The notes under the pieces were generated by a model. It searched no databases. It had not been told where the DNA came from and saw nothing but the letters and a program-made list of their open reading frames with translations. Shown one piece after another: positions 6,885-16,941 of a stretch of 64,000 nucleotides of DNA. Source of the stretch: Syntrophobacterales bacterium (lineage in GTDB: Bacteria; Desulfobacterota; Syntrophobacteria; Syntrophobacterales; Thermodesulforhabdaceae); assembly GCA_026417655.1 (NCBI GenBank), contig JAOACS010000001.1:1-64000 (forward strand). Reading direction: 5' to 3'. The number at the start of each line of letters is the position of its first letter. Positions within the stretch are counted from its first letter, which is position 1. A program made the position numbers and the translations under genes.

Positions 6885-7060
6885 GGGATCGACCTTTTCA
6901 CGAATTCGGGTTATATGAATAATGTTGATCCCTTGGTTTGATAAGGCGAATCAATCTTTTTAGGTGAGTTGATAGGAAGGTTGAAGGAGCCTTTTTAGGC
7001 GATCGCCAAGGGGAAAAGGGGATATCCCTTACTGTAGATCTTAAATGATGAGGTTAAAAA

Positions 7061-7195
7061 ATGGGTGACTGGCTAATACTTATTGGTGTAGTTTTGGCAT
7101 GGATTATTTTGAACAAATGGGTCTTCCCAAGGATAGGATTGCCTTCTTGAAGCGCCCGATCTTGTTCGGTTGGAGACCGAAGCAAAAAGGATTAA
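7061..7195 (+). CDS. Candidate small single-pass selenoprotein (UGA at 7148-7150 read as Sec)
   Basis: An ATG at 7061 with GAGG seven bases upstream opens a frame of 29 codons (MGDWLILIGVVLAWIILNKW then VFPRIGLPS), interrupted by TGA at 7148-7150 and continuing with SARSCSVGDRSKKD to TAA at 7193-7195. Residues 4-20 form one hydrophobic helix. The product would have a short exposed tail with U30 and C35. Just after the TGA is a hairpin, TTCGGT (7165-7170) pairing with ACCGAA (7176-7181), loop TGGAG, about 14 bases from the UGA and with G at the second loop position. This matches the general bacterial SECIS model. The same window holds a certain Sec enzyme (fdhA). I recall short deltaproteobacterial membrane proteins with a similar xPxxGxxT-U tail but cannot verify this. 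If Sec is not inserted, the product is a 29-residue membrane peptide. The 3' end overlaps the convergent carboxypeptidase gene by four bases. Confidence 0.6.
7165..7181 (+). promoter_or_regulatory. Candidate SECIS hairpin of the small selenoprotein
   Basis: Six perfect pairs (TTCGGT with ACCGAA) close a five-base loop TGGAG. TTG (7162-7164) and CAA (7183-7185) can extend the stem past a bulged G. Position and loop composition fit the bacterial selenocysteine insertion element, which lies inside the coding region just 3' of the UGA. Confidence 0.5.
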
Positions 7196-8568
7196 CGTCT
7201 TCTTGAAAAGCGCCTAGGGAGCGGACTTCTCCTTCTACGGGATCTTATAAATTTCATCACGAGAATTAGGACAAAGATAGATAAAACTATTGGACCACCC
7301 ACCTTTGCTAAGGTTTTCCAATCTGGAAGTTTGGGAGGAGAGGGTTCGCTTCCTTTAGTAAAAAGTCTCTGGATAGAATGCCATACCCTTTTGAAAAAAC
7401 CAGCTCTCTGAACATCTTCTCCCGCTACAATTGGGATTGTTTCCACGATCTCATCGCCTTTATAAAGGATTACCTTTCCTACAGTCTGACCCACCTTTAC
7501 AGGGGCGGTTAACTCGGAGGGTATCTCCACTACAGTTTTTATTTTCTTTTCCTCTCCCCTAGGAACTAATAGTAGTTTCGACTCCAAGGGATAAAGAGCT
7601 ACACTATTTTTATAGCCTTTCCAGACTCTTACCGTTCCAATAACCTCAGAGGAGTTTACAGGCCTTATCAAAACGTAGGATCTAAAACCATAGTTTAGAA
7701 GCTGCATAGCATCGCGCTCTCGAATATTAGGTTTTGCAGCCCCAAGAACCACGGCGATAAGCCTCATTCCATCTCTCTTTGCGGTGGCTATTAGGTGATA
7801 TCCTCCTGCTGCCACAAAGCCTGTCTTTAGACCATCGACGGAAGGATCCTTGTTCAGTAAATGATTTCGGTTGTATTGGAGGATGTTATTAAAGGTAAAG
7901 TCTCTCATGGAATGATAAGAAAGGGCGTGAGGAAAGCGATTTACATAGGCCACGGCAAGTTTTGCAAGGTCCTTTGCCGTGGAGTATTCCTGTGGGTCGG
8001 GGAGACCATGGGGGTTTGCAAAGTTACTGTGGGTTAAACCCAATTCCTGAGCCTTCTGATTCATTAATGAGACAAAAGACTCTACTGTGCCTGCAATGTG
8101 TTCCGCAACAGCCACACAAGCGTCATTTCCCGATACAACCGCAATACCCTTAATGAGCTCATTCAAGGGGATCTTGCGCCCCACCTCAATAAACATTTGT
8201 GATCCACCCGTTTTCCAGGCACGGTGGCTTACGTAAACTTCGTCGTCGAGATGAATAGATCCCTTTTCAAGAGCCTCAAACACTATATAAAGAGTGAGGA
8301 TTTTGGTAAGGGAAGCGGGAGGGATCTTTTCGTCGGCGTTATATTCATAGAGAATTGAACCCGTTTCGGGTTCGACTAATACCGCCGATCTTGATTCGAG
8401 AGACAAAGGTTGGGGTTGTGGTGTTCCTATCTGCTTTGTTCCTACTGAAGGGGGAGCACCATAAAGGAACTGTTTTGTAAGTCCCAGAAAGATCAAAATG
8501 ATCCATAAACCCATAACCCACTTCGGCTGAAAGTGATCGCTGAGCTTGTTCATCAAAGGATCTCCCAT
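7192..8568 (-). CDS. D-alanyl-D-alanine carboxypeptidase (penicillin-binding protein 5/6 type)
   Basis: A serine-type D-Ala-D-Ala carboxypeptidase that trims the terminal D-Ala of peptidoglycan stem peptides in the periplasm. The three active-site motifs are SLTK (Ser86), SGN (about 146-148) and KTG in DGLKTGFVAAGG (about 245). A signal peptide or anchor lies at about 17-38 (VMGLWIILIFLGL). The PBP5 C-terminal beta domain follows. Unusually, the protein ends with a transmembrane helix (GGPIVLSIFVLILVMKFI, about 428-445) and an Arg-rich tail, instead of the amphipathic anchor of E. coli PBP5. A second Met at codon 6 (MNKLSDHF) could be the real start. It is 15 bases downstream of engB. Confidence 0.92.
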   Translation of the reverse strand: MGDPLMNKLSDHFQPKWVMGLWIILIFLGLTKQFLYGAPPSVGTKQIGTPQPQPLSLESRSAVLVEPETGSILYEYNADEKIPPASLTKILTLYIVFEALEKGSIHLDDEVYVSHRAWKTGGSQMFIEVGRKIPLNELIKGIAVVSGNDACVAVAEHIAGTVESFVSLMNQKAQELGLTHSNFANPHGLPDPQEYSTAKDLAKLAVAYVNRFPHALSYHSMRDFTFNNILQYNRNHLLNKDPSVDGLKTGFVAAGGYHLIATAKRDGMRLIAVVLGAAKPNIRERDAMQLLNYGFRSYVLIRPVNSSEVIGTVRVWKGYKNSVALYPLESKLLLVPRGEEKKIKTVVEIPSELTAPVKVGQTVGKVILYKGDEIVETIPIVAGEDVQRAGFFKRVWHSIQRLFTKGSEPSPPKLPDWKTLAKVGGPIVLSIFVLILVMKFIRSRRRRSPLPRRFSRRR

Positions 8569-14874: not shown

Positions 14875-16941
14875 ATGGATTATAGGGTTATTCCAACGAT
14901 ATGCACTTATTGCGGCTGTGGCTGTGGTGTTGGACTAGAAGTAGTAGATGGAAGGGTTGTTCGGACTCTTCCTATTAGAACAAATCCCGTAAATGAAGGG
15001 AAGTTATGCATCAAAGGATGGAATGTCCATGAGTTTATCCACCATCCTGCAAGGCTTAAAAAACCTCTTTTAAAACATGGTGGACAGTTAGAACCAGTCT
15101 CTTGGGAAGACGCCTTTGACTATCTGGCAAGAGAACTTTCTAGGATAAAGGAGACTTACGGCTCCGACAGTATAGGTTTTTTGGTGAGTGCAAAATGCAC
15201 TAACGAAGATAATTACGTAGCCCAAAAGTTCGCTCGGGTTGTTATTGGCACGAATAACGTAGACCATTGTGCTCGTCTTTGACATTCTTCTACCGTGGCA
15301 GGTCTTGCTGCGGCTTTTGGAAGTGGTGCTATGACAAATTCCTTTAAGGAGATAGAGGACACAGAGTGTATCTTTGTTATAGGTTCCAACACTACTGTTG
15401 CTCATCCCCTTGTAGCTACAAGGATTTACAAAGCTAAAGCCAAGGGAGCCAAACTCATAGTTGTTGATCCAAGAAAGATTCACCTTGCAAGCTTTGCGGA
15501 TATTTACGTTCAGCACCGATTAGGTACCGACGTGGCTTTGATAAATGGTATCATGCACGTTATTTATAAAGAAGGGTGGTATAATAAAAAATTTATAGAT
15601 GAGCGGACAGAAAACTTCGAAGCCCTTGTTGAGGTTATAGATAAGTATCCTCCTTCTCTCGCTTCCCGAATTACGGGTGTGGCCGAAGAGGACATTATTA
15701 AGATAGCTAGGTATTATGCCACCTCAGAAACAAGTTCAATCCTTTACTGTATGGGAGTGACACAACACGCAACAGGTGTCGATAACGTAAAGAGCCTTGC
15801 GAACTTAGCAATGCTTTGTGGTCATGTGGGAAGGCCATCTACCGGTGTAAACCCTCTCAGGGGACAGAACAATGTTCAAGGTGCCTGTGATATGGGGGGA
15901 TTGCCCAATGTGTATCCAGGCTACCAAGCTGTAAATGTTCCTTCGAACAGAGAGAAGTTCGAGAAAGCCTGGGGTGTGACCCTTTCACCTAATGTTGGAT
16001 TAACGGTAGTGGAAATGACCAATGCTGCATTGGAAGGAAAGCTCAAGGCCCTAATAATAATGGGTGAAAATCCCCTTGTGAGCGATCCTGATGTACATCA
16101 TGTAGAGGAAGCTCTAAGGGCCTTGGAGCTTTTAGCTGTAATAGATATTTTTCCAACCCCTACAACAGATCTTGCTCATGTTGTTCTTCCCGGTGTCTCC
16201 TTTGCCGAAAAGGATGGCACCTTTACTAATTCGGAAAGACGGGTTCAGCGTGTTCGCAAAGCTATTGAACCAATTGGAGAGGCTAGGGTGGAATGGGCAA
16301 TATTTCAGGATTTGGCGACTCGGTTGGGCTACCATATGAGTTACTCCTCCTCTGAAGATGTTTTTAAGGAACTTACTGCTCTCACTCCTTCCTATGCTGG
16401 AATTTCCTACGAGAGACTCGACAAAAGTCCGGAAGGCCTTATATGGCCGTGTCCCACGCCAGATCATCCCGGCACACCGATTCTACACAGGGGCCAATTT
16501 GCTAGAGGGAAGGGGCTATTTCATGCCGTCGAGTACAGGGGTCCAGCGGAAGTGCCCGATGATGAATATCCCTTTTGGCTTACTACAGGCCGAGTTTATG
16601 TGCACTACCACACGGGAACTATGACAAGACGATCTTTCCATCTCGTTCGAGAGCTCAACGAACCTTACGTGGAAATTAGTCCAGAAGATGCCCTAAGGTT
16701 GGGCATTGAGAATGGAGAAATGGTTAGGCTCGAAAGCCGAAGGGGATATATTATAACGAAGGCCTTTGTAACAGATTCGGTGAAGGAAGGCCTCCTTTTT
16801 ATGCCCTTCCATTTTGCTGAGGCGGCAGCAAATAGATTGACAGCCAGCACCGCCCTCGATCCAATAGCAAAGATACCGGAACTTAAAGTTTGTGCTGTTA
16901 AACTCTCAAAACTAGAACCTCAGACCACAGTTGCAGCCTAA
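14875..16941 (+). CDS. fdhA: Formate dehydrogenase catalytic subunit with selenocysteine
   Basis: The full gene is 688 codons with an in-frame TGA at 15280-15282 read as Sec (residue 136). The frame around it reads VDHCARL-U-HSSTVAGLA, the invariant active-site motif of Sec formate dehydrogenases, with the neighbouring His. An N-terminal 4Fe-4S site uses Cys10, Cys13, Cys17 and Cys45 (CTYCGCGC and KLCIKG). The rest is the molybdopterin oxidoreductase core (MGVTQHATGVDNVKSLANLA, GQNNVQGACDMG) and the molydopterin dinucleotide-binding domain at the end (TTGRVYVHYHTGTMTRRS). It oxidises formate or reduces CO2. It has no twin-Arg signal, so it is cytoplasmic and FdhF-like. No electron-transfer subunit is adjacent. 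FdhD, encoded at 29479-30318, is its likely sulfur-transfer chaperone. A strong AGGAGG site precedes the ATG. Confidence 0.95.
15280..15320 (+). promoter_or_regulatory. Sec codon and SECIS element of fdhA
   Basis: TGA at 15280-15282 is followed by GCA (15298-15300), loop GGTCT (15301-15305) and TGC (15306-15308). The GGTCT apical loop at this distance is the same as in the well-studied E. coli fdhF SECIS, where SelB binds. Confidence 0.85.

Follow-up and report, generated by a model that had tools for sequence, protein, structure and literature searches.

The short gene at positions 7061-7195 (+ strand) of the window, by which we mean the whole 64,000-nucleotide stretch of DNA analysed here, almost certainly encodes a selenoprotein, and comparison of its sequence with those of its homologues makes it very probable that it represents a new family of very small membrane selenoproteins with a single membrane span. 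The product was read as MGDWLILIGVVLAWIILNKWVFPRIGLPS-U-SARSCSVGDRSKKD, that is, 44 residues with selenocysteine (Sec, U) at position 30 and cysteine at position 35. Recoding of UGA by a SECIS element is a known mechanism; what appears to be new is the family and its one-helix bacterial layout.

Direct reading of the window bore out the frame that had originally been predicted from the sequence. A Shine-Dalgarno-like GAGG (7050-7053, +) is separated by a 7-nt spacer from the ATG at 7061, 29 codons precede the in-frame TGA of codon 30 (7148-7150, +), and 14 codons follow it before the TAA stop at 7193-7195; the codon for Cys35 (7163-7165, +) lies five residues past U. The proposed single hydrophobic helix was likewise recovered with AlphaFold2, which gave one helix (residues 2-24; 7064-7132, +) and a loose, unstructured tail at a mean pLDDT of 70.1. 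Upstream, an inositol-monophosphatase-family gene (PF00459; 6060-6884, +) ends 176 nt before the ATG; its adjacency is not conserved. On the other side lies the convergent dacA gene (D-Ala-D-Ala carboxypeptidase, Peptidase_S11; 7192-8568, - strand), which shares 4 bases with the end of the small gene.

Sequence searches of 59 relatives returned homologues at E<=1e-4 in 47 genomes, at 48 places, all of which contain exactly one TGA inside an alignment that runs past it. In an alignment of 46 members, W20, P23, G26 and position 30 were invariant and Cys35 was present in at least 90%. The tail motif that had been proposed was one residue short, the corrected form being W-x2-P-x2-G-x3-U. When this alignment was used to scan the phylum, the survey of Desulfobacterota that the original prediction had recommended, 168 of 395 genomes matched at E<=0.01. 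Every match listed, from 150 of these genomes, carried TGA. The remaining 18 were searched again, and 13 best rows reported TGA; in the other five (G321, G369, G260, G055 and G056) the match ends just before codon 30, and reading on gives TGA. Fifteen of the 18 were read out directly, the other three being G113, G077 and G262, the last with a weak match (8.5e-4). The family also extends well beyond Desulfobacterota. In a named collection, 193 of 221 candidate stretches were relatives, and the 80 that were kept are, by record title, mostly from Desulfobacterota, with Planctomycetota, Spirochaetota, Acidobacteriota, Verrucomicrobiota, Myxococcota and Rokubacteria also represented. Cultured carriers bear the names Desulfacinum, Desulforhabdus and Desulfoferrobacter. 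One Cys member (L058) was found among the 80 stretches kept.

Codon 30 and the sequence behind it have the properties of a recoded frame. Across the 110 distinct loci compared, 109 have TGA as codon 30 and one has TGC, with no TAA or TAG, and Cys occupies U+5 in 104. For the 103 TGA members with Cys at U+5, tail codons +1 to +8 reached a mean BLOSUM62 score of 2.51 in frame, whereas the two alternative frames gave 0.09 and -0.18; variation in the tail was greatest at third codon positions (0.417 versus 0.247 and 0.209). Homologues that end at the TGA with random sequence after it, which had been named beforehand as the pattern that would speak against a selenoprotein, were not seen; the coding sequence behind the UGA is conserved in frame.

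The original prediction had also placed a hairpin with a G-containing loop behind the TGA at the distance of a bacterial SECIS (bSECIS), and such a hairpin was found at 7165-7181 (+), with a 7-pair stem (7165-7171/7175-7181), the loop GGA (7172-7174) and 21 nt between TGA and loop. According to the legend of Fig. 2 in PMC13188914, the bSECIS model has a loop of 3-9 nt, a stem of 4-16 bp, a G in the first two loop positions, a distance of 16-37 nt after the UGA and an MFE of at most -7.5 kcal/mol; the window hairpin falls within all of these limits, with an MFE of -10.4 kcal/mol for 7148-7195. Single-sequence folding was not convincing as stand-alone proof, because this energy is ordinary (z -0.64; as stable a fold was reached by 50 of 200 dinucleotide shuffles). 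What sets the window apart is the occurrence of a G-loop hairpin at a suitable distance (p=0.013 relative to synonymous recodings) and, above all, the conservation of this hairpin. Searching for loops of 3-6 nt with G in the first two positions, a contiguous stem of at least 4 pairs and a TGA-to-loop distance of 16-37 nt, we found a hairpin in 102 of 109 TGA loci (median stem 7) and none by these criteria in the other 7; most loops lie 19-24 nt past the TGA. When each tail was compared with 300 synonymous recodings drawn from local codon usage, the hairpin outperformed the recodings at p<0.05 in 72 of 109 loci (p<0.01 in 30), versus p<0.05 in 2 of 107 for control stretches taken in frame, at random, from the longest frame of each locus. 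Tails that differ (e.g. GUGVGPSDRC, TULRPDGC and SLPVRKE) have their own hairpins in other registers, the structure being kept even where the protein sequence changes.

The machinery for Sec insertion, whose presence had been predicted from fdhA, was found in the genome itself in the form of SelB (G000:C3:6011-7909) and tRNA-Sec (G000:C18:16640-16734). The fdhA-type formate dehydrogenase gene in question, from a known selenoprotein family, lies at 14896-16902 of the window and has one in-frame TGA; contig C11 of this genome carries a second fdhA copy that also has an in-frame TGA. SelB scored over its cut-off in 54 of the 59 relatives. The presence of tRNA-Sec was tried as a test across the phylum and set aside, since it is too common to discriminate (over cut-off in 355 of 395 genomes). 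Outside Desulfobacterota, SelB was detected in 17 of 20 genomes; the three that failed are G433, with a Cys gene, and G441 and G448, both with TGA, G448 having only a 231-bit piece of SelB. With SelB and tRNA-Sec available and a G-starting loop 21 nt past the UGA that suits the bacterial SECIS model, the UGA at 7148-7150 would be read as Sec and 14 more codons translated.

The Planctomycetota made it possible to compare Sec and Cys forms of the gene. Searching 294 of their genomes gave 32 matches, from which the 25 stronger ones were used for the SelB comparison; among the 7 that were dropped (E>=4.4e-4), G487 is a plausible TGA member. These 25 matches comprise 21 TGA genes and four Cys genes (G433, G633, G690 and G619). 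The Cys homologues that the original prediction had proposed looking for thus exist, and they occur in genomes without SelB: SelB was over its cut-off in 20 of 21 TGA genomes versus none of the four Cys genomes (Fisher p ~4e-4), and the sole TGA exception, G460 (2.1 Mb), has a tRNA-Sec at 74.6 bits. With a tRNA-Sec limit of 59 bits, chosen after the gap had been seen, 17 of 21 TGA genomes and 0 of 4 Cys genomes were positive; by Rfam's own limit the counts were 19 of 21 and 1 of 4, and the hit in the Cys genome G619 (49.9 bits) is at the level of second-rank hits elsewhere. The Cys gene of G433 keeps a 17-nt hairpin, GTGCGGTGTCACCGCAC (L058 1539-1555), base for base as in the TGA relatives L070, L092 and L093; no such hairpin was present in the other three Cys genes. 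An exact hairpin in a genome without detectable SelB is what would be expected after a recent change from TGA to TGC, and L058 is likely to be a recent Sec-to-Cys switch with a SECIS remnant. Such a natural switch makes the value of Sec directly testable.

Tail conservation, the conserved SECIS-like hairpin and the Cys homologues in genomes without SelB all support the membrane-selenoprotein reading, and they also weigh on the simplest alternative, in which the TGA is an ordinary stop, the product is a membrane peptide of 29 residues and the downstream conservation is incidental. Gene finders would end the frame at this TGA, and one-helix peptides of about 30 residues do exist in bacteria. However, an ordinary stop followed by a random tail is ruled out by the codon-30 counts, which include no TAA or TAG, and by the in-frame conservation past the TGA. 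Since, moreover, the Cys homologues read through with the same tail motif, the hairpin is selected at synonymous sites and the Cys genes lie in genomes without SelB, we consider a 29-residue product exceedingly improbable.

We found no catalogued family to which this gene belongs. Searches of NCBIfam 20.0 (the June 2026 library) and Pfam with 46 members gave best E values of 0.043 and 0.0052, respectively, to models with unrelated names; five further members, three of them Cys forms, had no NCBIfam or Pfam match at E<=0.01; PHROGs and PDB searches gave nothing significant, and Rfam had nothing at the locus. The literature compared consisted of excerpts of PMC13188914, PMC12013277 and PMC8318568 and the table of PMC9312934. 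Among the 119 selenoprotein families and subfamilies in the table of the 2026 review PMC13188914, no name denotes a one-helix protein that has this motif, and an unnamed mention in earlier primary lists is possible. Table 1 of that review does include small selenoproteins (KCU-star, the dual-CXXC small protein and selenobacteriocin) that are also short and predicted, but their motifs as given there are different, and none of the 46 members matched the corresponding NCBIfam models at E<=1. The features shared with FdhA-type bSECIS selenoproteins are an in-frame UGA, a G-loop hairpin 16-37 nt downstream, SelB and tRNA-Sec, and Cys homologues; in contrast to these, the new family would consist of 44-residue proteins with one membrane helix, without a cofactor domain or thioredoxin fold and without HMM homology to a catalogued family. 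A resemblance of layout only exists with SELENOK and SELENOS, small eukaryotic single-span membrane proteins with Sec near the C-terminus in a flexible tail that faces the cytosol. These differ in being longer and resident in the ER, in the sequence of helix and tail, and in having the SECIS in the 3' UTR. PF12669, which we take to comprise FeoB-associated Cys-rich membrane proteins of about 50 residues, is similar in length and presumably also has an N-terminal helix and a short tail with Cys, but carries a Cys cluster where the new family has one U and one C; it was not among the Pfam matches of the 46 members at E<=1.

As to function, a membrane-tethered U/C redox relay is the most likely role. 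Over 102 members, the mean number of K+R was 0.15 in the first six residues versus 5.7 after residue 17, and by the positive-inside rule this charge bias suggests an N-out/C-in helix with the Sec tail facing the cytoplasm. The flexible tail T/S-U-x-x-x-x-C would then present Sec30 and Cys35 at the cytoplasmic face as a selenol/thiol pair, tethered to the membrane and forming a selenylsulfide when oxidised, which could be reduced and re-oxidised as a relay. Redox use of this pair is probable. For a substrate, the best present guess is sulfur in a reactive or zero-valent state at the membrane, as in persulfides and polysulfides, a guess that derives from Cys homologues accompanied by genes for persulfide dioxygenase and sulfide:quinone oxidoreductase (SQR) in three Planctomycetota genomes; a role in sulfur relay can be put forward only tentatively.

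Over 153 loci, no neighbour is common to the whole family, and the search for a family-wide conserved operon ended with neighbours that differ by clade. The dacA cluster of the window recurs in 27 of the 153 loci, an adjacency that probably reflects vertical clade synteny with no functional link. Sulfur genes accompany three of the Cys forms. In G633, a same-strand run consists of TauE/SafE, a persulfide dioxygenase/rhodanese (best PDB 3tp9, 3r2u), the Cys gene, a mitochondrial-type SQR (PDB 6mp5, E 7e-130), DsrE and a SoxA-like cytochrome. This type of Planctomycetota sulfide/persulfide oxidation run, comprising TauE, dioxygenase-rhodanese, SQR, DsrE and SoxA-like cytochrome genes with the Cys homologue inside it, was located at L221 1661-7499. 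G690 has a mirrored run in the same order by gene size, in which the dioxygenase, SQR and SoxA-like genes were identified. In G433, a dioxygenase and an SQR lie ~2 kb and ~6 kb from the Cys gene on the same contig. Two of the three Cys-gene sulfur clusters belong to closely related genomes, their SQRs being 90% identical. Two TGA members, L070 and L092, likewise have persulfide dioxygenase nearby, and there was a weak hit close to L175. At E<=1e-15, SQR was missing from the genome that holds the window and, in total, from 51 of the 59 relatives, leaving 8 of 59 with it, and at E<=1e-40 it occurs in one of 21 TGA Planctomycetota (G470 only) versus 3 of 4 Cys genomes. Since it is missing from this genome, from most relatives and from 20 of 21 TGA Planctomycetota, SQR is ruled out as an obligate partner. 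Separately, an SQR-like frame at G054:C1:2830899-2831999 contains one in-frame TGA and is perhaps a known selenoprotein subtype of SQR.

Other roles for a genuine selenoprotein have to be weighed against a sulfur relay. The protein might be a membrane-anchored scavenger of peroxides or electrophiles, or might act on membrane proteins as a thiol reductant, in either case without a particular connection to sulfur compounds. The five-residue spacing of U and C, the cytoplasmic tail and the lack of a fixed gene partner would all suit this, as would the redox function of most known selenoproteins (PMC13188914, section 7); but neither an oxidoreductase fold nor a partner was found and the Cys homologues point to sulfur genes, and we therefore regard this role as possible but doubtful. 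It seems unlikely that the protein belongs to a larger membrane complex as a small accessory or assembly subunit, or that it uses Sec and Cys to bind a metal: the invariant W20, P23 and G26 beside the helix suggest contact with another protein, but no neighbour is conserved over the whole family. Quite unlikely, too, is a part in envelope-stress signalling as a small membrane sensor or modulator of a Cpx-like two-component system. HAMP/HisKA histidine kinases make up 11 of 79 scanned upstream neighbours, a kinase cluster precedes the gene on the same strand with short gaps in 12 loci of the Desulfuromonadales type, and at L122 1839-3926 a CpxR/CpxA-like pair, made up of an OmpR-type regulator and a kinase resembling CpxA (291 bits versus a cut-off of 800), stops ~70 nt short of the start codon; however, such neighbours are confined to Desulfuromonadales-type loci, and other clades have others.

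Whatever the substrate, 168 of the 395 sampled phylum genomes carry a predicted selenoprotein that standard gene callers would cut near residue 29. Being short and mostly without Cys homologues, the family escapes both usual search strategies; the authors of deep-Sep state that their method may miss proteins without Cys homologues (PMC12013277). This suggests that lists of bacterial selenoproteins miss very small ones. The gene could serve as a test bed for SelB recoding, because the SECIS fills much of the remaining coding stretch, and it points towards a new membrane component of anaerobes with a redox or sulfur role. One may speculate, with considerable reserve, that with these proteins a first class of membrane micro-selenoproteins in bacteria has come to light: an old family of about seven phyla, retained almost exclusively in the Sec form, in which a selenol tethered to the membrane takes up sulfane sulfur and hands it on. 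If so, a larger hidden set of selenoproteins of fewer than 60 residues could exist that is missed by methods needing long frames or Cys homologues. As a minor observation, two weak family-like TGA frames (L216 and L217) lie ~70 bases apart on one contig of G262, and several other genomes have two family matches, so that paralogues may exist.
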